The position numbers and the translations under genes are program-made. From an uncultured Clostridium sp. (GTDB taxonomy: Bacteria; Bacillota; Clostridia; Clostridiales; Clostridiaceae): a DNA stretch of 44,820 bases. This document shows, piece by piece, positions 14,310 to 33,930 of the stretch (within the stretch, counting starts at the first letter, position 1; each line of letters opens with the position of its first letter). The stretch spans positions 1 through 44,820 of the forward strand of contig CAIFEX010000026.1 in the NCBI GenBank assembly GCA_903789665.1, read 5' to 3'. The notes beneath the pieces are model-generated. The model was not told the origin of the DNA, made no database searches, and was given only the letters and a program-made list of their open reading frames with translations.

Positions 14310-14604
14310 TAATTAGATAGGTAGTTACGCATCTGATGGATAACGTTATAACTGCTTATAGGTTGGACCTTTGCCATACTGTGGATATAAGAGTGGAAAA
14401 AGGAAGCATAAACTGTTTGCACATTGAGTGTTTAAAATACAATATAATGTAATATTTTTGAAAGAAACCATTGTGGTTTTCAAATTGTATATAAATTTTT
14501 TTAGTTGATTAAAATGTGTTTTGTGAGAACTAATCTTAATTTTTTAGAATCCGAATCCTTATCATTGTTGATATTCATAAAAAATTCTTTATTACTGTTC
14601 TTAG
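14310..14604. other. Non-coding spacer, nothing recognised
   Basis: AT-rich DNA after the split acyltransferase gene with no frame above about 30 codons and no repeat or RNA structure that I can support. Confidence 0.5.
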
Positions 14605-15910: not shown

Positions 15911-15912
15911 GT

Positions 15913-17745: not shown

Positions 17746-17762
17746 TTATAGGTGGCGATAAA

Positions 17763-18857: not shown

Positions 18858-20180
18858 ATGGAACATAAAATTAAAAATTTAGTTGTGTGTTCAACATTAA
18901 ATCAAATAACCAATTTTATCATAATAGATATGTATAAACCTGAAAATATATTCAATATAACTTTTGATGATAATGCTGTAGAAAGATTTAATTTCAATAT
19001 TAAACCTCGTAAATGGGATGAATATTTAAAAAAAGAGTGTGAAAATTTTAAATGCTCATGGAGCGATGTAAAACTCTCCATTGAATATATACATAATTTA
19101 GGGAAGCTAAAAAATAAATTGGAAATGCAGATAGTGAGAAAAGCTTGCGGAGAAATATATTGGCATGTTACAGGAGGACAGAGAACCATAGCTCTGGCGG
19201 TAAGTAAATTAATCGGAGATAAAGAAACTAAGCGTGAGAAAGACAAATTGATATATGTAGAGGGAAATACTGAAGAATTAATTGTCAATAACTGTGACGG
19301 TGAAATTATTCCAAATGGGAATTTGAATTATAGAAAAAAAGATCTTACATTTGAACAGGCATTGAATCTAACGGGCTTTGACACAAAAAATCTTGAAAGT
19401 ACTATTGAATTTAAAAAGAAAGGTAATAAAATTCATGAAAATGATGTGAACTTTATAAAAGAACATAAATTTTATCAAAAATTATATAATTTTATTGTAG
19501 AAGACGAAAGTAAAAATAAAGGACATGAAATAATAAAATTTGAATCTGAAAATAGGAAATATGAAGGATCATTCAGAAACTTGCTTTTATATTCAAATAA
19601 AATTGAAAAAAGCACAAGCAGATATGAGTGTGTGGAAGAATTATTTAAGCAGTTTATGGAAAAACATAAAGATATAAAAGAAATCAAATATGATATATTG
19701 AGTTCTAAGGAAATCGAGGGATCTTATCCTGCAGGGTATGTATTTGAAAAGCTGGCGGCACACAGAATATATAATATTGTAAAAGATAACCCCAAGGTAA
19801 TAGAAATGGTGAGAAGTCTTAAAACTTATTTTAATAAGAAAAATAAAGATGATAATAGTAGACATAATATTATTGATGAATTGGATGTTGTTTTATTGAC
19901 AGATACCGGTAAGATAATAAATTTTGAGTGTAAATCAAGTGGCATGAAAAGTGACAATGCTAAGAGCAATAAGTATACTACTTATAGACTAGCTGGTGTA
20001 TTTGGAATGCCTGTGTTGCTATCACCACTTTTGGAATATGAAATAAAGGATAATGAAAATTCAGATGATGATTTGAAGAGTCAAAAGAAAGCTGTTAGAG
20101 CTGCAAAGGCAGCGGAGCTGGAAGTTATGGGCCTGGATAAGCTAAATGAAGAAAATTTTGAAAAATTATTTAATATTTAA
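18858..20180 (+). CDS. CARF-PD-(D/E)XK nuclease, Card1/Can2-like
   Basis: A 440-residue protein predicted to bind cyclic oligoadenylate made by Cas10 and to cut nucleic acid in response. The N-terminal half is Rossmann-like with the ligand motif TGGQRTIALAV (from residue 105), equivalent to TGGTK in CARF domains of the DUF1887 type. The C-terminal half shows a PD-(D/E)XK active site: Glu297 in VFEKLAAHR, Asp343 in DELDVV, and Glu357/Lys359 in NFECKS. This two-domain order matches Card1/Can2, which cleave single-stranded RNA and DNA. It starts at ATG 18858, the base after the cmr3 stop, and lies inside the operon between cmr3 and cmr4, so it is co-expressed with the effector. The family assignment is by motif, and its specificity is inferred. 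Confidence 0.8.
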   Translation: MEHKIKNLVVCSTLNQITNFIIIDMYKPENIFNITFDDNAVERFNFNIKPRKWDEYLKKECENFKCSWSDVKLSIEYIHNLGKLKNKLEMQIVRKACGEIYWHVTGGQRTIALAVSKLIGDKETKREKDKLIYVEGNTEELIVNNCDGEIIPNGNLNYRKKDLTFEQALNLTGFDTKNLESTIEFKKKGNKIHENDVNFIKEHKFYQKLYNFIVEDESKNKGHEIIKFESENRKYEGSFRNLLLYSNKIEKSTSRYECVEELFKQFMEKHKDIKEIKYDILSSKEIEGSYPAGYVFEKLAAHRIYNIVKDNPKVIEMVRSLKTYFNKKNKDDNSRHNIIDELDVVLLTDTGKIINFECKSSGMKSDNAKSNKYTTYRLAGVFGMPVLLSPLLEYEIKDNENSDDDLKSQKKAVRAAKAAELEVMGLDKLNEENFEKLFNI

Positions 20181-20205
20181 TGTATAGATGTCAGGAGGGT
20201 TAAAA

Positions 20206-21102
20206 ATGTATAGAGATAAGAAAATGGTATATATAAAGGCAATTACACCAATTCATGCTGGAGCCGGAGATGGACTTGGAAATGTGGACATGCCTATACA
20301 GCGGGAAAAACATTCCAATATACCTGAGATAGAAGCATCAAGCTTAAAGGGATCAATAAAACATAGTTTATACAGTAAATTTAAGGAAGATGAAGATGAA
20401 ATACCCGAAGAATTAAAAAAAGAATTATATACGGTATTTGGACCGGAAGATGGAAATGACAACTATTCCAGTTCAATAGGCTTTACAGATGCAAAATTGC
20501 TGTTTTTCCCTGTTAGATCAGCTGAAGACATATTTAAATTAGTAACCTGCCCTTATATTTTAAAAAGGTGGATAGAAGAGTTGAAAATGATAAGTAAAAA
20601 GGTTGATGGAAATCTCGATATAAATGTAAATTCTGGCGAATATATTGATTGTAAAGAAAATGACAGCAAGGATGATAATGAAAAAATAATTTTGGAAGAG
20701 TATGTATTTGACAGGTTTAGTGGTGTAGATGAAAATTTAAAGGGTATAATTTCGTCTATCGAAGGGCTGGATATCGAAAAGGTAGTGATATTGAACAATT
20801 CTGATTTTATCGATTTGGTTACTATGTATACAGAGATAATTACTAGAAATAAAATAAGCGTTAAAACTGGAGCTGCTGAAAAGACTGGACTTTTTACAGA
20901 AGAATATTTACCAGCTGAAACTATAATGTATTTTATGGTTTTGAGTGCACCTTCTTTTAATGAAAATAATAAGAAGACTCCAAAAGATATAATAGATTAT
21001 TTTAATACTAATGTAGATAAAGTATTTCAAGTTGGCGGAGATGCCACCATAGGGAAAGGTTTTGTAGAAAAATTGGAGAAAACAGGTGATGAAAATGCCT
21101 AA
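20206..21102 (+). CDS. cmr4: Type III-B RAMP protein Cmr4
   Basis: A 298-residue Cas7-type backbone subunit that cuts target RNA at 6-nt intervals. It has HAGAGDGLGNVDMPIQRE, in which Asp28 is the likely catalytic aspartate, then SSLKGSIKHSL, the RAMP LKGxxR-type segment. The C-terminal FQVGGDATIGKGFV is the glycine-rich loop. The frame opens at 20188, but I chose ATG 20206 because AGGAGGG (20193-20199) lies six bases before it. The stop overlaps the start of cmr5, indicating translational coupling. Confidence 0.92.
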   Translation: MYRDKKMVYIKAITPIHAGAGDGLGNVDMPIQREKHSNIPEIEASSLKGSIKHSLYSKFKEDEDEIPEELKKELYTVFGPEDGNDNYSSSIGFTDAKLLFFPVRSAEDIFKLVTCPYILKRWIEELKMISKKVDGNLDINVNSGEYIDCKENDSKDDNEKIILEEYVFDRFSGVDENLKGIISSIEGLDIEKVVILNNSDFIDLVTMYTEIITRNKISVKTGAAEKTGLFTEEYLPAETIMYFMVLSAPSFNENNKKTPKDIIDYFNTNVDKVFQVGGDATIGKGFVEKLEKTGDENA

Positions 21103-21547
21103 TCTGAAAAATGTAAACCTTGATGTAGCAAATTTTGCTATGGAATGTGTAAAAAAAGTTAAAGGTACTTTTAATGATAAGAATAAAAAGCAATATAAAA
21201 CCTTAGTGAGAAAAATGTCTGCATTGATTCAGAAAAATGGTTTTATAGGTACATTAGTTTTTAATTTATCTAAAGTTAAAGATGATTATCATAGAGAAGT
21301 TTTAAAGAATATAGTAGATTGGAATATATCGAATTACAAAATAAATGATATAAAGAATTTTAAAAATGATTATGAAAAATTACAAAAAGAAATAGATGAT
21401 GAAAATGATTTGAATAGATTCACAAAATATATAGAATGGGCTACATCTTTAAATCAGGGAGAATACAGGTTTGTAACTAAAGAAATGATGAACTTGTTTG
21501 GTTGGATTAAAAGATTTGCGGATGGAATGATTGAAGGGGAAGAATAA
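21089..21547 (+). CDS. cmr5: Type III-B small subunit Cmr5 (Cas11)
   Basis: A small all-helical subunit of about 152 residues that lines the target-RNA groove of the Cmr complex. The N-terminal helix (NVNLDVANFAMECVKKV), a central LVRKMSALIQKNGFIGTLVF segment and the WATSLNQGEYRFVTKEMMNLFGW-type region agree with Cmr5. Possible starts are GTG 21086, ATG 21089 and ATG 21095; the last has AGGTGA at good spacing. All overlap the end of cmr4. Confidence 0.87.
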   Translation: MKMPNLKNVNLDVANFAMECVKKVKGTFNDKNKKQYKTLVRKMSALIQKNGFIGTLVFNLSKVKDDYHREVLKNIVDWNISNYKINDIKNFKNDYEKLQKEIDDENDLNRFTKYIEWATSLNQGEYRFVTKEMMNLFGWIKRFADGMIEGEE

Positions 21548-21548
21548 A

Positions 21549-22910
21549 ATGGAGGTTAAAATAATAGATGATATAAAAAAGAATAAAATAATCTTAAAAA
21601 AAGATTTTAATACTGACGTTAATTATGTGGAAAAACCTAATAACGATTTGGAATATAGGAAAAATGATGTTGTTTTTGTGGAAAGGTCAGATGATGGAAA
21701 ATTACATATAGTAGATTATTTATATAAGTATAATATTCCACAAAATGGAAATACATTTAACAAATCACTTTCGGTGAACAAATTTACAAATATTTTTAAT
21801 CTAGGTAAAGGGTATAATATGAATGAAAATGAAAATGAGAAAGTTATATTGAGAGATATAGAAGAAAGTAATAAAAAAATAAGTGATACTTTATATAAAA
21901 GATATTATTTTGTCAGTCTCAAGGTCAAGCTGAAAGATAAGTTAATAATTGGATTAGGAAATCAATCTGTATTTGAAACGGGTATTACACTGCATCATAC
22001 TTATGGAATACCTTATATTCCTGGACAGGCTGTTAAGGGGGCTTTGAGAAATTATGTAATACGGGAATATTTTAATTCGTTAGAAAAAGATGCTATGGCA
22101 AACAAGCAATTTTTACTAATATTTGGTGGCAAAGATGAAGATGATAGTGATCTTAATACTTGCGGGAGAGTTATTTTTATGGATTCTTTTCCATGCAGTT
22201 GTAGTAATTTTAAATTAGAAAAGGATGTTATGACACCGCATTATGGTAATTATTATAAAGATGATAGTGGAAATAGCTTGCCTAATGATTCGGATACCCC
22301 CAACCCCATACCATTTTTGGTAGTAGAGAAAAATGGGAATGAGGATTTGAAATTTGAAATTAATATAGGAATAGATGAAAGTATTTTAAATAAGCCATGG
22401 GATGAAAATAACAAAATTACCATAAAAGAATTTCTCATAGATAATCTTGTTGATGCACTAGATTTTTATGGATTGGGTGCTAAGACTTCAGTTGGATATG
22501 GGTATTTTGATATAGATAAAAATGAAGCTCAGCAGCAAGATAAAAAAGCAGAATCAAATAGGAAAAAGAAATTAGAGAAAGAGAAAAATCTAAAGAGAAA
22601 ATTACAAGCAGAAGAAAAATTTAAAAAGGCGATGGAAGGTAAAAGTGATCTTGAGAAGCAAGTATATAGATTTAAGTTAATGAAAGATGATAATAAAAAG
22701 AATGATGCAATAATGGGATTTTTTAGTAACAAAATTGATGATTTAGAAAATCCGGATAAAATAGTGCTTTCTATGTTTGTTATGAATTATTTAAAAGAAA
22801 AAAATGAATGGAAATATAAAATATCTAAAAAGGGCAAACCTAATAAAAAGGCAGAAAGGGTCAGAAAAATATGTGAAATTTTATCAATAAATTTACCTTG
22901 CAAAAAGTAA
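21549..22910 (+). CDS. cmr6: Type III-B RAMP protein Cmr6 with C-terminal helical extension
   Basis: A Cas7-like subunit that caps the effector backbone next to Cmr1. The core motif is GLGNQSVFETG, then HTYGIPYIPGQAVKGALR, and GLGAKTSVGYGYF near residue 320. The last ~125 residues, after the G-loop, are an unusual Lys/Glu/Gln-rich coiled coil and helical domain. At 453 residues it is longer than typical Cmr6 (about 250-350). ATG 21549 follows AAGGGGAAG, one base after the cmr5 stop. The operon ends here with no clear terminator. Confidence 0.88.
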   Translation: MEVKIIDDIKKNKIILKKDFNTDVNYVEKPNNDLEYRKNDVVFVERSDDGKLHIVDYLYKYNIPQNGNTFNKSLSVNKFTNIFNLGKGYNMNENENEKVILRDIEESNKKISDTLYKRYYFVSLKVKLKDKLIIGLGNQSVFETGITLHHTYGIPYIPGQAVKGALRNYVIREYFNSLEKDAMANKQFLLIFGGKDEDDSDLNTCGRVIFMDSFPCSCSNFKLEKDVMTPHYGNYYKDDSGNSLPNDSDTPNPIPFLVVEKNGNEDLKFEINIGIDESILNKPWDENNKITIKEFLIDNLVDALDFYGLGAKTSVGYGYFDIDKNEAQQQDKKAESNRKKKLEKEKNLKRKLQAEEKFKKAMEGKSDLEKQVYRFKLMKDDNKKNDAIMGFFSNKIDDLENPDKIVLSMFVMNYLKEKNEWKYKISKKGKPNKKAERVRKICEILSINLPCKK

Positions 22911-23090: not shown

Positions 23091-23628
23091 ATTGTATATG
23101 TTAAAAGATTGTAAGTTTAAATATAACTATATGATACGTATAAAAACCTGTGTATACAATGTAAATTGTCATATTATCTGAAGTATAAAATATTAAAAAA
23201 ATATCTATATACTTTGGGGGAAATTCATACCGGCAGTAGTTGGATTGGACACCTTAGAGATGTAATGGTAGAATTCAATTAGAGGCTTTATTAGGAATTC
23301 GGTTGTTACCAGTAAGTGTTTTTATTTAAATTTCAGTAAACAGTTTTACTGAATATTTTCCAGATTGTCTTAAAATATAGATTTCATATGCTCAAATATG
23401 TAACTTTTACCGGTCGTATTGAAAAGTTCACGTCTTTATATATTATAAATTGAATTATTTTCTAAATTTTATATTTGAAACAATGTACTATTTGATTCGA
23501 CTTCTAAATAATCTTTTTAATACGGATATTTTTACAAAATATAGGAAAACCATTTTAAATTTTAGCATTTAATATATTTTTTCGAGTGGATCAGTAGGTA
23601 AAGGCTATTTAAGTCTTTTATTTATGAT
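23091..23628. other. Non-coding AT-rich DNA
   Basis: No frame of useful length and no repeat or hairpin that I can support between the two leader relics. Confidence 0.5.
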
Positions 23629-23832
23629 GTTTTATACCAATTTTTTATATTAATTTCATGAAATTAAAATCAGCTGGAAATTTTCAAGAAAATTCTTTAT
23701 TTATGCTGTCTTAAGTCCTATAATAAGAATAAAGAATGGCTGATTTACATTAGTTGAACCTTAACATGAGATGTATTTTGTGTTTATATTAGTACCAATT
23801 GTATTGTCAGAAAACTAATGAAGAATTGGAAC
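23629..23832 (+). repeat. Collapsed relic of array 1: leader, one repeat, trailer
   Basis: 23629-23752 aligns with the array-1 leader, including the terminator right arm, AATCAGCTGGAAA and TTTACATTA. At 23753-23778 lies one repeat, identical to the array-1 family over 25 of its first 26 bases; the difference (CCTTAAC) is the form usual in clostridia. The last four bases are lost. The following TATTGTCAGAAAACTAATG (23812-23830) matches the sequence just downstream of array 1 (TATTATCAGAAAACTAAT near 10184). Leader, repeat and trailer are thus all present with the spacers deleted. Confidence 0.75.
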
Positions 23833-23927: not shown

Positions 23928-24356
23928 ATGATTAATAATATAGATTTGCCTAAAGTGAAGCAAAGAATAATGTTTATGCAGGATAATCTTGAAAAATTAA
24001 ATAAATTACGAAGAATTGATAAAGATGTATTTGTAAAAGATTTTAGAAATGTAGATAGTGCCAAATATTTATTACAGGTGACAATTGAGGCAATGCTCGA
24101 TATAAGTAATCATATAATAGCTAGAAACAGGTGGGGAAGTCCGAAAACCAATAAGGAAAGCTTTGAGATACTTGCAGAGCGGGGTATTATTGAAAAAAGA
24201 TATATAAATACCTATTTTACTATGGCAAAATTTAGAAATAGAATTGTTCATATGTATTTTGACATTAACAATGGGATGATCTATGAGATAATTCAAAATA
24301 ATTTAAGGGATCTTGAAGCTTTTATTAAAACGATAGTTAAAAATATCAGCCTTTAA
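23928..24356 (+). CDS. hepT: HepT-type toxin (HEPN RNase)
   Basis: A 142-residue helical protein of the HepT/DUF86 family. The R-x4-H-x-Y active-site motif is RNRIVHMY near residue 105. HEPN toxins of this type act as RNases unless inactivated by the partner nucleotidyltransferase, which transfers AMP to the motif tyrosine in characterised HepT-MntA pairs. ATG 23928 is preceded by AAGGGG. The partner gene follows after a gap of about 40 bases. It lies between the two CRISPR-Cas operons, directly after the CRISPR relic. Confidence 0.87.
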   Translation: MINNIDLPKVKQRIMFMQDNLEKLNKLRRIDKDVFVKDFRNVDSAKYLLQVTIEAMLDISNHIIARNRWGSPKTNKESFEILAERGIIEKRYINTYFTMAKFRNRIVHMYFDINNGMIYEIIQNNLRDLEAFIKTIVKNISL

Positions 24357-24396
24357 TTGAATTCAAAAAAATATATTGAAAATTGGTGGTGATAAT

Positions 24397-24795
24397 TTGC
24401 TGAATATAGAAAATAAAATAGAAGATTTAAAAAGATATTTTAGTAAGCAGCCTAATATTTTGGGGGTGTGGATAGTAGGGTCTTATGGAACTAAATATCA
24501 AAGAGAAGATAGTGACATTGACTTTGCTATACTTTTTGATAGAGATACAGATGATTTAGAAGAGATGAAATTTGCCTGTGATATTACAGAGATACTCAAT
24601 ATAGAAAATATCGACACTATAAATTTGAGAAAAGCACCAATCACTCTTCAATTTAAGGCTATAAAAGATGGCAGAAACTTATACGAGGCAGATTATATTA
24701 AAATATGTGATTATATAGAATATGTAATAGATAATTATGGAGACAGGAAATATTATTTGGATAAATTTGAGAGAGATTATTTTGCAGCTCTTTAA
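24397..24795 (+). CDS. mntA: MntA-type nucleotidyltransferase antitoxin
   Basis: A 132-residue minimal nucleotidyltransferase with the GS-x10-D-x-D catalytic signature (GSYGTKYQREDSDID). It is predicted to AMPylate HepT and neutralise it. The frame opens at 24376, but TTG 24397 has the ribosome site GGTGGTGA at correct spacing. The gene order toxin then antitoxin is the usual one for this pair. The motif residues are intact, so the system may be active. Confidence 0.87.
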   Translation: MLNIENKIEDLKRYFSKQPNILGVWIVGSYGTKYQREDSDIDFAILFDRDTDDLEEMKFACDITEILNIENIDTINLRKAPITLQFKAIKDGRNLYEADYIKICDYIEYVIDNYGDRKYYLDKFERDYFAAL

Positions 24796-25023
24796 AGAAG
24801 TAAAATGAGTTTAAAAATTTATTGAAGATATGGGTTATACTGATAGAAAATTTACCAGAAGGCCACTGAATAAAGAAATCATAGTTTTAATGACATAATT
24901 AAGTAAAGTGAAATACTGTGGATGAAAAACCCGGTAATTTTATAGAGCTGGGGAGTGAGCTGAAAATTGTGGGGTATGCTTCAAAAGGTGATTTTAAAAG
25001 GAATGATCTTGCAGTGTAGAATT
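24796..25023. other. Decayed coding sequence, including a 33-codon frame
   Basis: 24918-25019 is an open frame of 33 codons starting GTG (VDEKPGNFIELGSELKIVGY) without a recognisable family or ribosome site. It looks like a leftover of a larger gene. The rest shows no gene. Confidence 0.35.
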
Positions 25024-25060
25024 AAAAGCACTTACTAAGTAAAAATAGGTGGGTGCTTTT
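25024..25060 (+). terminator. Possible terminator hairpin
   Basis: AAAAGCAC (25024-25031) and GTGCTTTT (25053-25060) are perfect inverted arms with a 21-base loop. The arm ends in TTTT, but no longer T run follows. Confidence 0.4.
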
Positions 25061-25124
25061 ACTATACTTAAGTTTAAATAGTGAGATATTATATAGTCTG
25101 GCCAGCATGAGGAAAATTATATAG

Positions 25125-25222
25125 GTGTAAGGTGTACTGCTGGGAAAACTCTTGATAAAATTGCCGATAAAGTTCTTAAAGAAAATATTGAAGCTTTTAA
25201 AGGGGGCAGAAATATTTTTTAG
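25125..25222 (+). pseudogene. C-terminal gene fragment, possibly 2-hydroxyacid dehydrogenase
   Basis: A short frame ending at 25222 reads TAGKTLDKIADKVLKENIEAF and then KGGRNIF. The pattern of an alcohol-like end helix followed by ENIEAF and a Gly-Arg tail recalls the C-terminus of D-2-hydroxyacid dehydrogenases, but the segment is too short to be sure. There is no start or ribosome site. Confidence 0.25.
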
Positions 25223-25420
25223 TTTCTAAATAATATAAATAAAATATAAAAAAGTAAAATTAAGAAAGTATTGAATTTATATAAAATTAGTGTTAAAATA
25301 AAAATGTAAAATGAAATATTTTTATAGTATTATAAAAAAATTAAGGTATATAAATGTAGAATGTATATATTTCGGGTTATTTGTGAGAAATATTTTTTTA
25401 AAAAGAAGTTATAACTGTTA

Positions 25421-25437
25421 CCGTGAGTTTAAAATGT
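25421..25437 (+). promoter_or_regulatory. Predicted Cascade target of the crRNA-like RNA
   Basis: CCGTGAGTTTAAAATGT matches the first 17 bases of the spacer at 26101-26117 with a single difference at position 6. The three bases 5' of it are TTA (possible PAM). Complementarity stops after 17 bases, as expected for a site that is bound but not cut. A full-length footprint would reach about 25457 and cover the -35 of the next promoter. Confidence 0.6.
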
Positions 25438-25448
25438 AAGAGAATAAT

Positions 25449-25479
25449 TTAACATAAATAAAATATAGAATGTTATACA
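25449..25479 (+). promoter_or_regulatory. Candidate extended -10 promoter of small membrane protein gene
   Basis: An extended -10 TGT-TATACA (25471-25479) with a distant -35-like TTAACA (25449-25454) at 19-base spacing. Start of transcription would be near 25486. The predicted Cascade target lies directly upstream. Confidence 0.4.
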
Positions 25480-25498
25480 ATAAAATAAGTGGACAGAA

Positions 25499-25519
25499 AT
25501 TACCATATATTATGGTAAT
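25499..25519 (+). promoter_or_regulatory. Perfect palindrome in the leader of the small gene
   Basis: Arms ATTACCATA (25499-25507) and TATGGTAAT (25511-25519) flank three bases. It lies just downstream of the inferred transcription start and may be an operator or a 5' mRNA stem-loop. A 26-codon frame (25522-25602) and a four-codon frame with its own ribosome site (25596-25610) lie between it and the small gene. Confidence 0.55.
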
Positions 25520-25626
25520 AAATGGCTAAGGGGGTAAAGCATCATAACTGTAAACCACTTTCCAAATTTTATATCTTCTTCAATAAGGGATTACTATGGT
25601 GATTTTGTAGTAGAGGAAGTGACATA

Positions 25627-25797
25627 TTGAGTGATAAATTAATGAATTTACTAATAATGGTATATCTCACATTGACATGTATTAGTGCTATGGTGATTAT
25701 AGGGACATATTTTAAGGACAAATTAAAATTTAAAATGAAGGATTTAATTAAAGATGAAATGTCAATTATGATAAAAAAGGAAGATTCAGAAAAATAA
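25627..25797 (+). CDS. 56-residue single-pass membrane protein, candidate CreT-like toxin
   Basis: The TTG at 25627 is preceded by a good ribosome site AGAGGAAGT (25612-25620). The product has a short polar N-terminus, one membrane segment at about residues 7-28 (NLLIMVYLTLTCISAMVIIG), then a lysine-rich cytoplasmic tail ending KKEDSEK. Size, layout and monocistronic structure resemble type I toxins and other small membrane toxins, but I recognise no family. A perfect hairpin follows the stop directly. The upstream region contains a near-perfect match to the spacer of the degenerate mini-CRISPR at 26071-26146, which suggests repression by a crRNA-guided complex. That it is toxic is inference; it could equally be a harmless small protein, or the toxic agent could be the RNA or an upstream mini-frame. 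Confidence 0.6.
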   Translation: MSDKLMNLLIMVYLTLTCISAMVIIGTYFKDKLKFKMKDLIKDEMSIMIKKEDSEK

Positions 25798-25823
25798 AAT
25801 GTACTCCTTTGCAAGTACATTTT
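25796..25823 (+). terminator. Hairpin terminator with 10-bp perfect stem
   Basis: AAAATGTACT (25796-25805) pairs with AGTACATTTT (25814-25823) around an 8-base loop. It begins inside the stop codon of the small membrane protein and ends in TTTT, so it closes a transcript of roughly 340 nt. It may work in both directions. Confidence 0.7.
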
Positions 25824-26021
25824 AAATAATTAGAAAGAACAATTTTTAAAAAACCATAGTAATTCCTTTTTATATTTATATTATATCATATATTGTAAAA
25901 AAATATTTAATTATAGTTAAAAAATATAATTAAGAACTTGTTATAACATTACTTAATGTAAAATTGGATGTTTAGTAAGCCGGTTAATATAGTATGGTAG
26001 ACACTAAAATACAAAAAAATA
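25824..26021. other. AT-rich non-coding spacer
   Basis: No gene seen. This interval, directly before the mini-CRISPR and cas8b, is where cas6 usually lies in clostridial I-B operons; nothing resembling it remains. Confidence 0.5.
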
Positions 26022-26050
26022 TTGTATTTATATAAACCTAATGCTAATAT
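26022..26050 (+). promoter_or_regulatory. Candidate promoter of the degenerate mini-CRISPR
   Basis: TTGTAT (26022-26027), a 17-base spacer and an extended -10 TGC-TAATAT (26042-26050). Transcription would start near 26057, fourteen bases before the first degenerate repeat. Confidence 0.45.
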
Positions 26051-26056
26051 TGACAT

Positions 26057-26146
26057 ATAAAGTGAAAACATTTTTAGAATACCTAAAAAGGAATTGAAAC
26101 CCGTGTGTTTAAAATGTTTATATTTTTAGAATACCTATTGAGGAAT
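26057..26146 (+). ncRNA. CreA-like crRNA: degenerate repeat, 22-nt spacer, degenerate repeat
   Basis: The first repeat (26071-26100) matches the array-2 repeat at 27 of 30 positions. It keeps the CCT/AGG mini-stem and the full 3' handle ATTGAAAC, differing at position 1 and at two loop bases. The spacer is 26101-26122, only 22 nt instead of 34-39. The second repeat (26123-26146) matches 22 of its first 24 positions but has lost the ATTGAAAC end. Cas6-type cleavage would yield an RNA with a normal handle and a short guide. The first 17 guide bases match 25421-25437 except at position 6. This is the layout of CreA antitoxin RNAs in CreTA modules, which use Cascade to repress a toxin promoter. 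Function is inferred. Confidence 0.6.
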
Positions 26147-26166
26147 GATTATCTTATGTGTATAAT
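26138..26166 (+). promoter_or_regulatory. Candidate promoter of the type I-B cas operon
   Basis: A -35-like TTGAGG (26138-26143), a 17-base spacer and a perfect -10 TATAAT (26161-26166). The -35 lies inside the second degenerate repeat and exists because position 16 changed from A to T. Confidence 0.5.
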
Positions 26167-26292
26167 AAATAGTTATATTTTTAAAAACATAATTATTTAT
26201 TTAAGTTTAAAATATATAAGTTAAAATAATTGATAGTGAAAATAATTTTATTAAATTATATAGAAAATAATAGAAAGGAGTGGGAATTTATC

Positions 26293-28236
26293 ATGATAGA
26301 AGGCATAATTCAAATAGGAAATTCCATGCTTTCTAATGGTGGAGACATGCTTTGCAGCTTGATTAAAGAAGTGTCTTCCCAGAACAGAAGGGGAGAACAG
26401 ATGCATGTACTTAAATTTTGCTTCAGTACACAAAAAGATGAATTTAAATTGGACTGCAAAGAAGAAATTGACAGTTCTACGGCTTTGAAATATGCTTTTA
26501 TAGGTTCTGCAGATGGCCCTGCATCTCCACAGTGGTTTGTAACCAGCAATTCATATTTGTATCATATAACCGAAACCTTGAACAATTTAACCAAAGTTGA
26601 TTTGGGAAATGAATTAAATGAAAAAATCAAGACTGTTTTCGATACTTATTATGTGGATCTGGGAGATAAAATTAAGCCTAAAAACAGATATATTTTGAAT
26701 TATAAAAAATACGGAATTGCAGAAGAAGATGTTCTGGAGACATTAAATAAGGTGGAAAGTGAAGAGACTGAAGAGAATGAGAAGCGTAGATATAAGAATA
26801 TAGCTTCATCTCTGAAAAAAATTTATTCTAAAGAATTTGAAAATTATGTTAAATATGAATTTAATATAAAAAAGAATGAAATAGGTCTTTGCACCATTTT
26901 AATAGATGGAATTCCTTTAAGCAATTTCAAAGAATATAGGCAGGCGATTTTGAAAAGTAAGCAGAAAAGCAAGGGTAATAAAAAAGTCAGAGGCTACTGC
27001 AGTATGTGTGGCAGCAGTAAAAATCTGACATCAGATTTATCCAAGATGAAAATAAAGTATTACACTACAAATCAAATTATATTTGCAAGTGAGCTTAAAA
27101 ATTATGATAAAAATATGCTCCTATGCAGTAACTGCCTCAATAAGCTCATATCGGGAGAAAATTATATACAAAATAAATTAAATACAAAACTTGTGGGATT
27201 TACAGTCTATTTAATTCCACATTTTATATTGGGAAGCCCGATGGATAAAAAAGATTTGGACAAAGTGTCTGATAATATTCAACATTCTTTTAATATAGTG
27301 AAGAATTTAAATGGAGTAGAAGATTTTAAAGATGAAATTCAGAATATAGCAGATATGAGAAACAGAAATACATATTTTTTAATAAATATAATGTTTTATA
27401 AAAAATCGAACCAGGCGACCAAAATTCAAAAATTAATTAAAGATGTAAACCCATCTGTATTTCAAAAGATTATGACTGTGTCATACGACATGAACAAATT
27501 GGGCAGAAAAATTATGGGAATAAACTACAAACTCAATATAGATCTGCAGACGTTTTATTTTATGACACCTGTTCGACTCAAGAATTCGGAACCTATGAAT
27601 TACAGAAAGCTTCTTCAAATGTACGATGCCATTTTAACGCAGAGGAATTTAAAGCTGGATGAATTTATAAGAGGAGTTATTTCCTGTGCCAAAATTGAAT
27701 TTTTTGACGAAGCAGGTTATAACGTAAATGGGAAATCAGGTATATATAATACAATACTTAAGGCTAATTTCTGTATAAAATTTTTAGAATATATGGGATG
27801 TATAGGGGAGGGAGAAAAAATGAATGTTTCTAATTTAAAAGTTAGGGATGATATGAAATCTTATATTTTAAACATGGGGTATGACGAGCAGCAGAGTGCA
27901 ATGTTTTTACTTGGATGTCTTATAGGTGAGATAGGAAATGCACAGTATAGAAGAATGGGTGAAGACAGGAAACCGATTTTAAATAAGCTTAATTTTGGTG
28001 GCGTTGATAAAAGTAAGGTTATAAGGCTCACCAATGAAGTGTTTAATAAACTTATACAGGAGAAAATAAGAAAATACAATGAAATCACCTTTTCAGAGTG
28101 TAAAAGACTCATGGATGCCAATAAGGATTCATGGAAATTGAACAAACACGAAAATTTGTTCTACATTTTGTCAGGATATAGTTATGATACCATGAAAGCA
28201 ATGTTAAATAAAGGAGGAAAAGAAAATGAACAATAG
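26293..28236 (+). CDS. cas8b: Type I-B large subunit Cas8b
   Basis: A 647-residue protein of the TM1802/Csh1-like group, the large subunit of the I-B Cascade, which recognises the PAM and recruits Cas3. It has the N-terminal block FIGSADGPASPQWFVTSNSYLYHI and a zinc-binding pair, CSMC (about residues 236-239) and CSNC (about 278-281). A C-terminal helical part (MGYDEQQSAMFLLGCLIGEIGNAQ) resembles a Cas11-like region that in I-B systems can be made separately by internal translation. The frame is open from 26230, but ATG 26293 has GAAAGGAG upstream and a family-like start. It overlaps cas7 by 11 bases. It is first in its operon; no cas6 precedes it. Confidence 0.92.
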   Translation: MIEGIIQIGNSMLSNGGDMLCSLIKEVSSQNRRGEQMHVLKFCFSTQKDEFKLDCKEEIDSSTALKYAFIGSADGPASPQWFVTSNSYLYHITETLNNLTKVDLGNELNEKIKTVFDTYYVDLGDKIKPKNRYILNYKKYGIAEEDVLETLNKVESEETEENEKRRYKNIASSLKKIYSKEFENYVKYEFNIKKNEIGLCTILIDGIPLSNFKEYRQAILKSKQKSKGNKKVRGYCSMCGSSKNLTSDLSKMKIKYYTTNQIIFASELKNYDKNMLLCSNCLNKLISGENYIQNKLNTKLVGFTVYLIPHFILGSPMDKKDLDKVSDNIQHSFNIVKNLNGVEDFKDEIQNIADMRNRNTYFLINIMFYKKSNQATKIQKLIKDVNPSVFQKIMTVSYDMNKLGRKIMGINYKLNIDLQTFYFMTPVRLKNSEPMNYRKLLQMYDAILTQRNLKLDEFIRGVISCAKIEFFDEAGYNVNGKSGIYNTILKANFCIKFLEYMGCIGEGEKMNVSNLKVRDDMKSYILNMGYDEQQSAMFLLGCLIGEIGNAQYRRMGEDRKPILNKLNFGGVDKSKVIRLTNEVFNKLIQEKIRKYNEITFSECKRLMDANKDSWKLNKHENLFYILSGYSYDTMKAMLNKGGKENEQ

Positions 28237-29101
28237 TGAAATTTTGTATCTTTATGATGCAAAACTTACAAATCCAAATGGGGATCCTGATGAGGAAAAC
28301 AGACCGCGTATGGATTATGAGAGGGATATAAATCTTGTTTCTGATTTGAGAATTAAAAGATACATAAGAGATTATCTTCTTGATAAAGGTTATGAATTAT
28401 TTGTTTCAAAAGTGGATGATAAAGCAGTAACTGCAGAGGGTAGAATAAAAGAACTTGGCAGCAGTGATGTAGATACAATACTGGATAAGCTTATAGATGT
28501 GAGGCTTTTTGGAGCAACTATTCCTGTAAAAAATGACAACAAGAATTTTATAGGGCCTGTCCAATTTAACTGGGGCTATTCTCTCAACAAAGTTGAACTT
28601 CTGGAGGCAAGTATAACGTCTCATTTTGCTTCAGGAGAAGGAAATAAACAAGGTGCCATAGGAAAAGATTATAGGGTAAAATATTCTTTTATTGCTTTTA
28701 GCGGGGTTATAAGCGGTAAAAGGGCAGAACATACGAAATTAAAAGAAGAAGATGTGGCACTCTTGGATGAAGCTATGAGATATGCTATACCGGAACTTGC
28801 TACAAGGAGTAAAATAGGCCAGTATCCAAGATTATATCTGAGGGTCGAATATAATGATGATCAAACTATACTTGGAGATCTGAGGGACTATTTAAAATTT
28901 TCTTCTGAAGACGAAAGTGTAAGAGATATAAAAGAAGTGACTTTGGATATAACGGAACTTGTAAAATTTTTAAATAAAAACAGTGATAAAATTTCTAAGC
29001 TGCATTATTTTGCAGATGAAAAGCTAAAGCTTGTGCTGGATGGAAATAAAGTTGGTTTCAAGGAGGCATTTGACGGCTTTTCATTAAATGAAGTAAAGTA
29101 A
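28226..29101 (+). CDS. cas7: Type I-B backbone subunit Cas7 (Csh2 family)
   Basis: A 291-residue RAMP forming the helical crRNA-binding backbone of Cascade. The N-terminal YDAKLTNPNGDPDEENRPRMD followed by VSDLRIKRYIRDYL is the typical Cas7b signature. The central GPVQFNWGYSLNKVELLEASITSHFASGEG-type segment includes the thumb region. A strong ribosome site AAAGGAGG lies within the end of cas8b. Confidence 0.95.
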   Translation: MNNSEILYLYDAKLTNPNGDPDEENRPRMDYERDINLVSDLRIKRYIRDYLLDKGYELFVSKVDDKAVTAEGRIKELGSSDVDTILDKLIDVRLFGATIPVKNDNKNFIGPVQFNWGYSLNKVELLEASITSHFASGEGNKQGAIGKDYRVKYSFIAFSGVISGKRAEHTKLKEEDVALLDEAMRYAIPELATRSKIGQYPRLYLRVEYNDDQTILGDLRDYLKFSSEDESVRDIKEVTLDITELVKFLNKNSDKISKLHYFADEKLKLVLDGNKVGFKEAFDGFSLNEVK

Positions 29102-29111
29102 GGTGAAAAAT

Positions 29112-29834
29112 ATGGATTTATTGATATTAAAAGTGAAAGGGAAATTTGCACACTTTAGAAAATTTTATACCAATTCATCTTCACTTTCCTATTCTATACC
29201 GTCAAGAACAACTATTATAGGCTTGGTAGCAGCTGTTCTGGGTTATGAGAGGGACAGCTATTATGAACTTTTTTCCAAAGATAAACTTAATATATCTGTA
29301 AAAAAAGACAGTTGTATAAGAAAAGTAATGCAAAGTGTAAATTATATTAGAGCTACAAGTCCTAAAAATATATTTCAACCTAAAGACCATACCCAGATCC
29401 CAGTAGAAATTTTAACTGGCGATGACGGAGTTGAGTATACCATTTATATAAGCTGTGCCGACAAAAATTTGATGGATGAATTGGAGTACAGGGTAAAAGA
29501 TAATAAATATGTATATTCTCCATATTTGGGAGCTGCACCATTTAATTGCAGTTTTCAGTTTTGCCGCAGGCTTGATGTACAACTGCAGAAAAGCAATGAA
29601 CCAATACGGATATCTACACCTGTGAACTTAAAATATATTGTTTCAGGAAGTATAGACATATTTGAAAATGACAATTTGAAACTTCTAAAAGAGAGAATGC
29701 CTGTAGAATTTTTAAAGGACAGAGAAGTGGGGAATATGGCTTCCTATATTTATGATGAAAACGGACACCCGTTGAAGTTGAAACTTAATGCTGAATTTAT
29801 AGAACTTGAAGATGAAAATATAGTGTTTATGTAG
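29112..29834 (+). CDS. cas5: Type I-B subunit Cas5
   Basis: A 240-residue RAMP that caps the 5' handle of crRNA in Cascade. The start shows LILKVKGKFAHFRKFYTN, then SLSYSIPSRTTIIGLVAAVLG, the conserved Cas5 N-terminal block. YSPYLGAAPFNCSF follows near residue 140. A GTG at 29103 is in frame, but ATG 29112 has TAAGGTG at good spacing. It begins ten bases after the cas7 stop. Confidence 0.93.
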   Translation: MDLLILKVKGKFAHFRKFYTNSSSLSYSIPSRTTIIGLVAAVLGYERDSYYELFSKDKLNISVKKDSCIRKVMQSVNYIRATSPKNIFQPKDHTQIPVEILTGDDGVEYTIYISCADKNLMDELEYRVKDNKYVYSPYLGAAPFNCSFQFCRRLDVQLQKSNEPIRISTPVNLKYIVSGSIDIFENDNLKLLKERMPVEFLKDREVGNMASYIYDENGHPLKLKLNAEFIELEDENIVFM

Positions 29835-29843
29835 GAGATGTTA

Positions 29844-32159
29844 GTGTTGAAGTTTTATTCTCATCCTGATAAATTAATTTTAACTCATCTTATGGAAGTT
29901 AATGAAATATCTCAGAATTATTGTGATAAAAAATACAGTAAGGCAGAGGAAATATTAAGTTTTTCTCATGATTTTGGAAAATATACTACTTTTTTTCAAA
30001 AATATATTTTAGGTAAAGATAAAACTAAAAATGTCTTAAATGGACATGGTTTTATCTCTGCACTGTTTGGGGCATTTATTGCCCTTGGTTTTTATAGTGA
30101 CAATATTATGCCTGTGATCATATACAATTGTATACTTCACCACCATGGAAGTATAAAAAATGTTGATATAAATTTGCCTAAAAATTTTAGAAGGCCAATA
30201 ATAGATAAATCCGATCTTAGAGGAAAGGTTGATGTTGCTTATGAACAAATAGAGGATATAGAAAAAAACAGGAAGTTTATAGCAGAAGATTATAAAAAAA
30301 TTGGATACGGGAAATATTTTGATGAATTTATATCTCAAAGACCTTTTGAAAAGATCCTGACTAAATTAAAAAAACTTCAATTTAAATTTGAATATGACAA
30401 TGAAAGCGGGGAAACTTATTTTATAAGCCAGGTGCTGTATAGTTCACTTATTGCAGCAGACAAGATCAGTGCTTCAAATATAGATCTTCCAGAAATAAAA
30501 TTTGCAAACTTTGATATTTTAAATGAAACAAAAAATGAGAAATTTAAAGATAGTGCCGGAGATAAAATAAATTTGGTTAGAGCTCAAATATTTAATAGTG
30601 TACAAGATAGAATTGGAAAAGTTTATAAAGATAACAAGATATTTTCTATAACAGCTCCTACGGGAACGGGGAAAACTTACTGCGGATTTTTTACTGCTTT
30701 AAAACTTCAGAAGCTTTTAGATGGAAATAGGAAAATAATATATTCTCTTCCTTTTACGTCTATAATAAATCAAAATTATTCTTCAATATATTCTCTTTTT
30801 GAAAATATTCCTGATTTTGAAAATCAAAGTAGTGAGTATATAATAAAGCATCATAGTCTTGCAAATGTTGAATATAGTAGTGAACACGAAAATTATACAA
30901 AAGTTAAAGCTGAAATGTTGATAGAAAATTGGAACAGCGGAATAATAATTACGACTTTTGTCCAGCTTCTTGAAACTTTAATAGGCAACAAGAATAGGAT
31001 GCTTAAGAAATTCAATGCACTGAGAAATTCAATAATTATTCTAGATGAGGTACAAGCTATAGATATAAAATACTTGAAGCTTGTAGAATTCATTCTTGAG
31101 TCTGCTAGCAAGTATCTTGATTGCAGAATAATAATGATGACTGCAACTAAGCCTCTCATGCTTTCAAATGCAGTAGAACTTTTGGATAATAATAAAAAAT
31201 ATTTTAATATGTTCAATAGAACTTCTATTATTCCAAAGCTTAAACCAATTAAAATAGAAAATTTTATAGAAGAATTCTATGACAATATGGAAAATAAATC
31301 TTATCTTATAATATGTAATACCATAGCACAATCCCTAAAAATTTATAAAGAACTTAAAAATAGCGGCAGGAAAGTGCTGTATTTATCTACTAATATTTTA
31401 CCCTGCCATAGAAAAGAAAGAATAGATAAAGTGACAAAAATGTTGAAAAAAGGTGAAAAAATAATACTCGTCTCAACTCAGGTTGTAGAAGCAGGTGTGG
31501 ACTTTGATTTTGATATTGTGATAAGGGATATAGCACCTATTGATTCTATAATACAGTCAGCAGGCAGATGTAACAGAAATGGCAAAATTGAAAATGGGAA
31601 TGTGTATGTTTATTCTATGGTGGATGACAGTGGTATATATTATGGCACCAGAGTCTATGGGAAGACTCTTATAAACATAAGTGGGGAGCTTTTGCAGGAT
31701 AAAAAATGCATAGAAGAAAAGGAGTATTTTGAACTCATTGGGAATTATTTTAATGAAGTGGATAAAAATAAAAATCAAGATGATTCCGAGAAATTCAAAG
31801 AATCAATTATAAAGATGTATTTTAGTGACAAAGACTATAGCTTGGATAAATTTTCACTTATAAAAGAAAATAAGAACTATATAGACGTATTTTTTAGAAT
31901 CGATGATGAAGCTGAAAGAATCTATAATGAACTTTTAAAAGCTTTAAGTATTAAGAATATTGAAGCTAAAAGCGAGAAAATGCTTGAAATAAAAAATAAA
32001 GTCAGAGAATATACTTTATCTATTCCAATTAAGTACGTTGACAAGGTGAATAACAAAGATGACATTATATTGAATTTTCCTCAAAGTGCCTGTGAAGTAT
32101 ATTATGATAATATGACAGGATATAAGAGAGAAAAAGGAGAAGATTTTTTCGTTATGTAG
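29844..32159 (+). CDS. cas3: Cas3 HD nuclease-helicase
   Basis: The effector recruited to Cascade-bound DNA; it unwinds and degrades the target strand. Of about 771 residues, the N-terminal HD domain shows SHDFGKY (near residue 42) and LHHHG (near 100). The SF2 helicase follows with APTGTGKT (Walker A near 272-278), DEVQ (near 401), the SAT-like MTATKP (near 433) and QSAGRCNRNG (motif VI). All nuclease and ATPase motifs look intact. ATG 29838 abuts the ribosome site, so I prefer GTG 29844; TTG 29847 is also possible. It starts about ten bases after the cas5 stop. Confidence 0.95.
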   Translation: MLKFYSHPDKLILTHLMEVNEISQNYCDKKYSKAEEILSFSHDFGKYTTFFQKYILGKDKTKNVLNGHGFISALFGAFIALGFYSDNIMPVIIYNCILHHHGSIKNVDINLPKNFRRPIIDKSDLRGKVDVAYEQIEDIEKNRKFIAEDYKKIGYGKYFDEFISQRPFEKILTKLKKLQFKFEYDNESGETYFISQVLYSSLIAADKISASNIDLPEIKFANFDILNETKNEKFKDSAGDKINLVRAQIFNSVQDRIGKVYKDNKIFSITAPTGTGKTYCGFFTALKLQKLLDGNRKIIYSLPFTSIINQNYSSIYSLFENIPDFENQSSEYIIKHHSLANVEYSSEHENYTKVKAEMLIENWNSGIIITTFVQLLETLIGNKNRMLKKFNALRNSIIILDEVQAIDIKYLKLVEFILESASKYLDCRIIMMTATKPLMLSNAVELLDNNKKYFNMFNRTSIIPKLKPIKIENFIEEFYDNMENKSYLIICNTIAQSLKIYKELKNSGRKVLYLSTNILPCHRKERIDKVTKMLKKGEKIILVSTQVVEAGVDFDFDIVIRDIAPIDSIIQSAGRCNRNGKIENGNVYVYSMVDDSGIYYGTRVYGKTLINISGELLQDKKCIEEKEYFELIGNYFNEVDKNKNQDDSEKFKESIIKMYFSDKDYSLDKFSLIKENKNYIDVFFRIDDEAERIYNELLKALSIKNIEAKSEKMLEIKNKVREYTLSIPIKYVDKVNNKDDIILNFPQSACEVYYDNMTGYKREKGEDFFVM

Positions 32160-32169
32160 GGGTGATATT

Positions 32170-32661
32170 ATGGAGGTCAATGGAACTATGCTTTGGTACT
32201 ACAATGTGTGCAAGCGGGAAGTCTGGCTCATGTCCAGGGCCATAGTGCCTGATCAGCATGATGAAAATGTGGAAATAGGTCGTTTTATACATGAACGTAC
32301 ATATAAGAGAAACGACAAGGAAATCAGTTTCGGGAATGTCAAATTCGATGTGATTTTCAGGTCCAAAAATCAGATAACAATTGGTGAGACAAAGAAAACC
32401 TCTAAATATGCCGAGGCTTCAAAGTGGCAGCTCATGTATTATCTGAACCAGTTAAAGGAAGCGGGCATAGAGGCAAAGGGGATTTTATTATATCCGGAGG
32501 AGAAAAAGAGGACAGAAGTGAACCTGACTGATGAATCCCGGGAATGTCTTCAAAAAATGTGTCTGGATATAGAAAGAATATGTGAACTTAAACGTCCTCC
32601 TTTTGCTGAGAAGATACGGTTTTGCAGGAAGTGTGCTTATAGGGAATATTGTTATTCATAG
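32170..32661 (+). CDS. cas4: Cas4 adaptation exonuclease
   Basis: A 163-residue RecB-like nuclease with an iron-sulfur cluster that trims prespacers and helps select the PAM. It has Cys14, then His41, Asp60, Glu73 and Lys75 (GETKK) and the Q-x3-Y motif KWQLMYY, and closes with Cys152, Cys155 and Cys161. All four cluster cysteines are present. ATG 32170 follows AGGGGTGA just after the cas3 stop. Confidence 0.94.
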   Translation: MEVNGTMLWYYNVCKREVWLMSRAIVPDQHDENVEIGRFIHERTYKRNDKEISFGNVKFDVIFRSKNQITIGETKKTSKYAEASKWQLMYYLNQLKEAGIEAKGILLYPEEKKRTEVNLTDESRECLQKMCLDIERICELKRPPFAEKIRFCRKCAYREYCYS

Positions 32662-32670
32662 GAGGTATAG

Positions 32671-33663
32671 ATGAAAAAAGATATTTATATTTTTAGCGAT
32701 GGAGATTTAAAGAGAAAAGATAATACCGTATATTTTGAAACTGGAGGCAGAAAGAAATATTTGCCTGTGGAGGAACTCAACAATATCTGGGTATTTGGCG
32801 AAATCAATTTGAATAAAAGATTTCTTGATTTTATATCCAGGAAGGAAATATGTGTACATTTTTTTAATTATTATGGATATTATACTGGGACTTTTTACCC
32901 GAGAGAGCATTTGAATTCCGGATACGTAATATTGAAGCAGGCGGAAAATTATCTTGATTATGAAAAAAGACTTAAAATAGCCAAGATGATAATAGAGACC
33001 GCAGCGGAAAACATAATTGTGATTCTAAAATATTATAACAGCAGGGGCATGGATGTGGAACCAGAGCTCAAAGATATAGCGGAAAAGGAAAAATTCATGG
33101 AAAATTGTCAAACTATAGAGGAACTCATGGCAATTGAAGGCAACATGCGACAGGAATACTATGGATGTTTTTCAAAAATAATAAAGAATCCGGAATTTGC
33201 CTTTAAAGTCAGAAGCAAGCGTCCTCCAAGGGACAAGATAAATGCACTTATCAGCTTTGGAAACTCCATGATGTACACTACTGTTCTAGGTGAAATATAC
33301 CAAACCCAGCTGGATCCGAGGATAGGCTACCTTCATTCTACAAACATAAGGCATTTTTCGCTCAACCTTGACATAGCTGAAATATTCAAGCCCATAATAG
33401 TGGACAGGACTATCTTTACTATTCTCAACAGGAATGAACTTACTGAAAAAGATTTTGAATCTGACTTCAACGGTATAATGTTAAATGATAAAGGAAGAAA
33501 AAAGTTTATAGAGGAATACAACAATAAGCTTTTAACCAGAATAAAGCATCCTAAAATAGGAACTACTGTCAGTTACAAACGTATAATAAGGCTTGAATTA
33601 TACAAACTTCAAAAATATATAACTGAAGACGAGCCATATAACGGTTTTGTCGCGAGGTGGTAG
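32671..33663 (+). CDS. cas1: Cas1 integrase
   Basis: A 330-residue metal-dependent integrase that inserts spacers with Cas2. The metal site is seen as Glu156 in MAIEGNMRQEYY, His222 in YLHSTNIRHFSL, and Asp234/Glu237 in LDIAEIF. Type I-B subgroup features include the N-terminal YIFSDGDLKRKDNT. It lies ten bases after cas4. It is the only cas1 in the window, so it presumably serves all three arrays. Confidence 0.96.
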   Translation: MKKDIYIFSDGDLKRKDNTVYFETGGRKKYLPVEELNNIWVFGEINLNKRFLDFISRKEICVHFFNYYGYYTGTFYPREHLNSGYVILKQAENYLDYEKRLKIAKMIIETAAENIIVILKYYNSRGMDVEPELKDIAEKEKFMENCQTIEELMAIEGNMRQEYYGCFSKIIKNPEFAFKVRSKRPPRDKINALISFGNSMMYTTVLGEIYQTQLDPRIGYLHSTNIRHFSLNLDIAEIFKPIIVDRTIFTILNRNELTEKDFESDFNGIMLNDKGRKKFIEEYNNKLLTRIKHPKIGTTVSYKRIIRLELYKLQKYITEDEPYNGFVARW

Positions 33664-33666
33664 CTG

Positions 33667-33930
33667 GTGTTTGTAATACTTGTTTATGATTTTGGAGAAA
33701 AGCGTGTGGGTCGTGCTCTCAAAACATGCAGAAAGTATTTAACCTGGGTCCAAAATTCTGTCTTTGAGGGAGATATAAGCATGGCTAATTTGAAAAAACT
33801 AAAGTGCCAACTTTCTGATATCATGGTGAACAGCGAAGATTCGGTGATAATATACACTTTTAAAAGTACGAGATATTCCAATAGAGAGGTTCTTGGAGTG
33901 TCAAAAAATCAGCAGGATATATTCCTGTAA
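33667..33930 (+). CDS. cas2: Cas2
   Basis: An 87-residue ferredoxin-fold partner of Cas1. It begins MFVILVYDFGEKRVGRALKTC, with the conserved aspartate after the first strand, and includes the TWVQNSVFEG segment. GTG 33667 lies three bases after the cas1 stop with AGGTGG upstream. The array 3 leader follows directly. Confidence 0.95.
   Translation: MFVILVYDFGEKRVGRALKTCRKYLTWVQNSVFEGDISMANLKKLKCQLSDIMVNSEDSVIIYTFKSTRYSNREVLGVSKNQQDIFL

Follow-up and report, generated by a model that had tools for sequence, protein, structure and literature searches.

Immediately upstream of cas8b in the type I-B CRISPR-Cas locus (clustered regularly interspaced short palindromic repeats and the associated proteins) of an uncultured Clostridium, two degenerate repeats, psiR1 and psiR2, enclose a pseudo-spacer, psiS, whose beginning recurs upstream of a gene for a small membrane protein. 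The locus is carried by contig C26 of a draft assembly (3.03 Mb, 63 contigs), and this entire contig of 44,820 bp was analysed and is referred to as the window. On paper, psiR1-psiS-psiR2 has the appearance of a non-random guide resembling CRISPR RNA (crRNA), aimed, with a correct protospacer adjacent motif (PAM), at a site upstream of a unit similar to type I toxin-antitoxin modules, in a manner reminiscent of the CreTA and CrePA systems. On balance, it is probably a creA-like gene, whose RNA together with Cascade, the effector complex of Cas8b, Cas7 and Cas5, represses the type I toxin-like unit downstream of the matched site.

According to the original prediction, a 22-nt spacer upstream of cas8b is enclosed by two degenerate repeats, and both repeats were found there, adjoining the effector genes and degenerated in different parts. 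psiR1 agrees with one form of the array repeat at 27 of 30 positions; it retains the 8-nt 5' handle completely (8/8), and 19 of its first 22 bases (or 18, depending on the repeat form). psiR2, with 23 identities in 30, keeps 20 of its first 22 bases, i.e. the 22-nt 3' handle, and 3 of the last 8. Genes of the creA type are described as having psiR1 and psiR2 degenerated in such a divided fashion and as lacking a leader (PMC8501985, PMC9458426), and the degeneration seen in these two sequences follows the published pattern. The 120 bp upstream of psiR1 resemble neither of the two I-B leaders, since 127 and 35 of 300 shuffles, respectively, aligned equally well, while none of 300 shuffles did so in the control comparison of the two leaders with each other. 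The pair also stands apart by its spacing: of the repeat-core distances under 80 that occur in the window, 199 fall between 64 and 69, and the single value of 52 belongs to psiR1 and psiR2. In favour of a creA-like nature, repeats of this type that enclose a short spacer were encountered in 1 of 194 genomes.

The bases 1-17 of psiS are identical to the target site except for base 6, as had been predicted, and bases 18-22 are unmatched. CreA has been reported to skip bases 6 and 12 in pairing, its seed comprising bases 1-5 and 7-11 (PMC8501985), and the sole mismatch within the seed region of psiS thus falls on a position that CreA does not read; complementarity of this seed, accompanied by a PAM, to a site at a toxin gene is the arrangement known from CreTA. 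A search of the 3.03-Mb assembly with the pattern CCGTGWGTTTAAAATGT, allowing up to three mismatches, returned 19 places (two with no mismatch, two with two and 15 with three), and the two perfect ones are psiS itself and the site at 25421, which makes the target unique at that level in the assembly. The three-mismatch places can be ascribed to chance, because CCGTGWGTTTAAAATGT reversed, used as a control, gave 26 places. Within the window, two matches with at most two mismatches were found versus 0.01 expected. Under a Markov null model, a seed of at least 17 arises anywhere in the 30 kb outside the arrays with P = 1.6e-3, and one that additionally has a TTA PAM and lies within 2 kb with P = 6.7e-6 (2 of 300,000 draws). 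None of the 195 array spacers reaches a seed of 17 in the same 30 kb (bases 6 and 12 ignored); the best of them reach 16 without TTA and 15 with TTA, in both cases with an A+T-rich seed. The Markov model and the real spacers took the place of a null based on shuffled psiS, which was set aside because shuffles of a 22-mer frequently retain its original start. They led us to reject a chance origin of the match, in accordance with the earlier estimate. Duplication had been regarded as a possible source; it was rejected as far as the flanks show, there being no clear similarity between the surroundings of the guide and target copies (shuffles scored equally well in 20 of 300 cases for 100 bp upstream, 47 of 300 for 200 bp upstream and 269 of 300 downstream). 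As judged from these comparisons, both chance and simple duplication are unlikely sources of the match.

The PAM of the system was derived separately, by searching alternate array spacers (98 of 195) in 27 related genomes. Fourteen places were returned, from which two in CRISPR arrays of the relative G002 (L098, L091) and two without a seed match (L093, L095) were dropped before counting. The remaining ten places, belonging to seven spacers, show TTA eight times and TAA twice, with TTA at one or more places for six of the seven spacers; two of the eight TTA places are near-identical places of one genome. Phage records searched with the array spacers gave no match, and four weak places in plasmid records were excluded from the tally. 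By this count TTA is the PAM of this very I-B system, and its presence at the target constitutes an independent test, which the target passes. Four of the array spacers (L089, L097, L101, L102) match contig C15 of a Clostridium luticellarii genome (G007), all with TTA, which likely reflects a shared prophage. One window I-B spacer has 33 bases in common with an opposite-strand spacer of a DR3-type array in G002 (L091).

The gene downstream of the target encodes a protein of 56 residues. A membrane protein of this length and a hairpin had been predicted, and both are present, at the corrected places given in Table 1. The product is small and hydrophobic, as are the toxins of type I toxin-antitoxin systems, with a hydropathy maximum of 2.41 over 19 residues, a peak at residues 8-26 and a net charge of +2 in residues 29-56. 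It had been taken for an isolated new toxin, and this did not hold: DNA and protein comparisons revealed homologues in 7 of the 13 genomes of the genus, including contig C41 of the same genome, and further ones at five loci in a named genome collection and at four loci on three IMG/VR viral contigs; the phage and plasmid records that were searched contained none. The family appears uncatalogued, as the curated cut-offs of Pfam and NCBIfam are not reached: the best Pfam match of the window protein is DUF2678 (E 0.003, under its cut-off), NCBIfam and PADLOC return nothing for it, and PHROG gives weak, unnamed matches (best E 0.014). The family proteins share conserved residues, and the loci share a layout of promoter, anti-Shine-Dalgarno stretch, Shine-Dalgarno sequence, open reading frame (ORF) and, mostly, a hairpin. 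The gene can thus be assigned to a multi-copy family whose anatomy is that of type I toxin-antitoxin modules and whose toxicity is putative. No sequence resembling the I-B repeat was found in the stretches examined around 14 homologous loci and the five loci of the named collection.

Anti-Shine-Dalgarno and long-range helices typify the mRNAs of type I toxins, and the mRNA of this family possesses both: two covarying helices, of a kind that hides the mRNA from translation, one of them covering the Shine-Dalgarno sequence. They were delineated in an alignment of the window copy with 11 of 14 distinct homologues, leaving out L016 (a different upstream sequence), L017 (diverged and without a start) and L027 (interrupted), and retaining L108 despite a stop within its ORF. 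The two helices, which were picked after the alignment and the folds had been seen, show 96.6% standard pairs and changes on both sides at 11 of 27 pairs, values reached by none of 500 shuffles, and slid versions attained at most 58.7% standard pairs. The number of further pair types is unexceptional (19 versus 18.1 in shuffles, 173 of 500 being as high). The window copy, with 23 standard and four nonstandard pairs, contributes 8 of the 15 double-change cells, and 6 of the 27 pairs are still doubly changed if its row is omitted. Convergent to the toxin-like gene, the minus-strand TATAAT would yield an antisense RNA.

The promoter region distinguishes the window copy from its relatives. Aligned with the homologues, it has lost the usual -10 box of the family, at a position where L107 has TATGAT and L027 TGTAAT, the promoter of L016 being unalignable. 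The copy seen adjoining a CRISPR locus accordingly combines a lost -10 box with a crRNA-like match upstream. If the candidate promoter picked by eye (Table 1) were used instead, the target would sit immediately 5' of its -35 element. A palindrome, TTACCATATATTATGGTAA, lies at 25499-25519 in the leader, where the homologues carry the -10 region.

Table 1. Coordinates of the features discussed, in window positions
Feature	Position	Strand	Basis
cas6 remnant, 41 bp, internal	14378..14418	+	85% over 41 bp, E 4.6e-8 vs G002 stretch
Type III-B Cmr operon	14903-22910		
HepT/MntA pair	23928-24795		
TTA PAM of target site (context GTTA)	25418..25420	+	sequence; TTA 5' of 8/10 protospacer sites
Target site, equal to psiS bases 1-17 except base 6	25421..25437	+	pattern scans
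Candidate toxin promoter, TTAACA, 19 bases, extended -10 TGTTATACAAT; weak, by eye	25449..25481	+	sequence; not listed by promoter scan
Site of family sense -10 box, here TAATAA (TATAAT in 11/14 homologues)	25516..25521	+	homologue alignment
Anti-Shine-Dalgarno strand, pairs with 25615-25623 (7/9 pairs standard in window)	25554..25562	+	helix 1
Long-range helix, 5' strand, pairs with 25853-25868	25585..25600	+	helix 2, fold
Shine-Dalgarno strand	25615..25623	+	homologue alignment, helix 1
56-residue membrane protein, type I toxin-like, TTG start	25627..25797	+	homologues, hydropathy
Hairpin AAAATGTACT/AGTACATTTT at 3' end, where family hairpin sits	25796..25823	+	sequence, homologues; absent from terminator scan list
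Long-range helix, 3' strand; near 5' end of predicted minus-strand antisense RNA	25853..25868	+	helix 2, fold
Candidate antisense promoter, extended -10 TGATATAAT	25880..25888	-	sequence; minus-strand TATAAT here in 11/14 homologues
psiR1, degenerate repeat, 8-nt handle ATTGAAAC intact	26071..26100	+	sequence, repeat comparison
Pseudo-spacer psiS, 22 nt (array spacers 34-39 nt)	26101..26122	+	sequence
psiR2, degenerate repeat, 22-nt 3' handle near-intact	26123..26152	+	sequence, repeat comparison
Type I-B operon cas8b-cas7-cas5-cas3-cas4-cas1-cas2, without cas6	26293..33930	+	7 open genes, each matching its family

In the mechanism that we infer from these features, extending from processing and binding to repression, toxicity and benefit, the RNA from 26071-26152 would be cut to about 52 nt (26093-26144), comprising the 8-nt handle, the 22-nt guide and the 22-nt 3' handle, and would be loaded onto the neighbouring Cas8b-Cas7-Cas5 complex. 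Guided by psiS bases 1-17, with base 6 unread, and by the TTA PAM, the complex would bind 25421-25437; the pairing there would be incomplete, and therefore no cutting by Cas3 is expected in this proposal. Bound Cascade would lower transcription of the toxin by covering the upstream part of its promoter or by acting as a block. The toxin unit would be a former type I toxin-antitoxin module that has lost its usual -10 box and has kept the antisense promoter and the mRNA-hiding helices, so that two RNA locks would be placed on the toxin, a transcriptional one exerted via Cascade and a post-transcriptional one via the antisense RNA. Loss or inhibition of Cascade would then raise the level of toxin mRNA and penalise the cell. 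More tentatively, and with less than even confidence, we suggest that the CRISPR system captured a type I unit, that the guide replaced its usual promoter control, and that the resulting toxin with two locks guards against loss or inhibition of Cascade.

Several observations weigh against a creA-like function. In haloarchaea psiR1 diverges more than psiR2 (PMC9458426), and here the opposite is seen, psiR1 being the nearer of the two to the array repeat (27 versus 23 of 30). No convincing promoter lies beside the target (15 promoter-like sites versus 12.3 expected from shuffles, with a standard deviation of 3.2), and if the start site of the toxin-like family is used, the target is located about 90 bp upstream of it; the position alone does not decide the matter, because in Acinetobacter the CreA site is downstream of the promoter (PMC10097628). 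The antisense RNA, should it be produced, may render the Cascade lock dispensable. The guide/target pair is known from one genome: a pattern consisting of this repeat type around a 10-31-nt spacer was scanned in 194 genomes of the family and encountered in the present one, the pattern being specific to this repeat and a relative of Cas8b (E 1e-10) occurring in 15 of the 194. No second guide/target pair was found in the 900 bp (829 in one case) upstream of cas8b in 11 relatives. In one of them, G011 (L065), a 36-nt spacer between two degenerate repeats is located approximately 330-230 bp upstream of cas8b, after a broken cas6, and two scanned stretches of 16 and 15 kb contain no match to this spacer with a seed of at least 10. 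In another, G006 (L062), a degenerate repeat resembling psiR2 lies about 172 bp upstream of cas8b, and the seeds obtained for it are all A+T-rich.

A further objection concerns maturation, for which CreA requires Cas6 (PMC8501985): searches with PF10040, TIGR01877 and the Cas6 sequences of C. ragsdalei and G002 found no cas6 in the assembly, and the C. ragsdalei query matched, at E 0.1, in 9 of the 13 genomes of the genus. G002 carries, in this order, an I-B array, a condensation-like gene, an intact cas6 and the leader of a second array type. The window has the matching array and condensation-like gene, then the 41-bp piece of cas6 at the place of the intact gene, and then the Cmr operon. The condensation-domain-like gene (13093-14309) is split in two pieces, likewise in G002; the ORF 13093-13956 was considered as a hidden Cas6 and rejected, since it resembles a piece of that gene. 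Either cas6 lies in an unassembled region or it has been lost and the module is orphaned, and its present-day function is uncertain because maturation needs Cas6, which was not found in this assembly. It is conceivable, if rather unlikely, that psiR1-psiS-psiR2 is a formerly working module which, after deletion of cas6, leaves the guide unmatured and Cascade empty, with the toxin held by the antisense RNA or by a weak promoter. The loss of the usual sense -10 box agrees with such a history, and if cas6 has been lost, survival would be in keeping with a toxin that the antisense RNA continues to restrain. On the other hand, in an assembly of 63 contigs and with a window that ends inside an array, a small contig bearing cas6 could be missing; any decay would also have to be recent, because the handle, the seed match and 23 of the 27 mRNA pairs persist.

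A quite improbable explanation is that the element is a leftover short array with a spacer derived from the genome itself, the match merely recording its origin and having no regulatory role. The restriction to one known genome and the end of the match at base 17 agree with it. Against it speak the location of the self-target, upstream of a toxin-like unit, its right PAM and the lone seed mismatch at an unread base, as well as repeat degeneration confined mostly to bases that are free to vary in creA and flanks without clear duplication. That the RNA instead represses a cas promoter or another transcript, in the manner of CreR, is highly improbable. In its favour, psiR2 is situated immediately 5' of cas8b, and a promoter-like site (26138-26166, 10/12) overlaps it. 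Against it, the window offers psiS, besides its own sequence, a single site where the seed is 8 or longer, that at 25421, and none at the cas8b or Cmr promoters. Among the listed ORFs of at least 80 residues, a single one falls in 24796-26229, and it runs on the minus strand across the toxin gene (25569-25820). A creA-like gene directed at the toxin-like unit remains the reading that we prefer.

The window contains three CRISPR arrays, and its Cas8b is 89% identical to that of G002. Within the Cmr operon, positions 18858-20180 encode a CARF-PDDEXK protein of 440 amino acids (PADLOC CARF4--CARF_PDDEXK, 392 bits), a candidate signal-activated nuclease. Upstream of the HepT/MntA pair, a copy of the DR3-type array leader precedes one degenerate repeat (23617-23782), a possible second ectopic repeat. 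A third repeat variant, GTTTTAGGATACCTAGTAAGGAATTGAAAC, is present in 11 exact copies on contig C53 of the same genome (L086, 1-900).

If the proposed mechanism is true, type I toxin-antitoxin units would join the guards repressed by CRISPR, exemplified by CreTA and CrePA, an immune system would be made hard to lose by means of a toxin leash, and the occurrence of type I toxin units next to CRISPR loci in clostridia, known from one clostridial species (PMC6563280), would be provided with a mechanism. The locus may also be regarded as a natural experiment on the fate of a CRISPR-guarded toxin once cas6 is lost. Covariation in the mRNA helices also serves to define a family of toxin-like genes.

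The closest known system is CreTA, the type VIII toxin-antitoxin system of Haloarcula (I-B) and Acinetobacter (I-F), with which the present locus shares a pseudo-spacer between two repeats that have degenerated divergently, next to the effector genes, as well as seed pairing over bases 1-5 and 7-11 with a PAM at the toxin gene, and the lack of a leader (PMC8501985, PMC9458426, PMC10097628). The original prediction of a CreTA module is supported in part, as to the crRNA-like anatomy, the seed match and the unread base 6, and the PAM derived here adds to this support. The nature of the toxin is different, that of CreTA being an RNA. Judged by anatomy, the target gene here codes for a protein whose family has conserved residues and mRNAs with type I-like features, within a unit that has a putative antisense promoter; the locus also differs from CreTA in that cas6 was not found and psiR1 is the better preserved repeat. 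We do not classify the locus as CreTA, given that its toxin has the appearance of a protein and that maturation by Cas6 is doubtful. CreR, the crRNA-like autoregulator of cas operons (PMC12737573), similarly adjoins cas genes, but psiS matches no cas promoter. The open-access literature revealed no type I toxin under CreA control, subscription papers on CreTA, CreR and CrePA being outside this scope. Convergent type I pairs near CRISPR arrays are known from Clostridioides difficile (CD2517.1-RCd8, CD2907.1-RCd9 and CD0956.2-RCd10), with membrane proteins of 50-53 residues; compared by description, they differ in that the account of these pairs in PMC6563280, as far as it was available, mentions no crRNA-like guide to them. 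In CrePA, a CreA-type crRNA-like RNA represses a protein toxin, CreP, typically of the KilA-N type, at its promoter (PMC12737573). A protein-coding gene and a guide match to it are likewise present here, and equivalent control is predicted, but the toxin would be of another type, as Pfam gives no KilA-N match in the 56-residue protein, and its mRNA, by its anatomy, would bear a second, RNA-based control.
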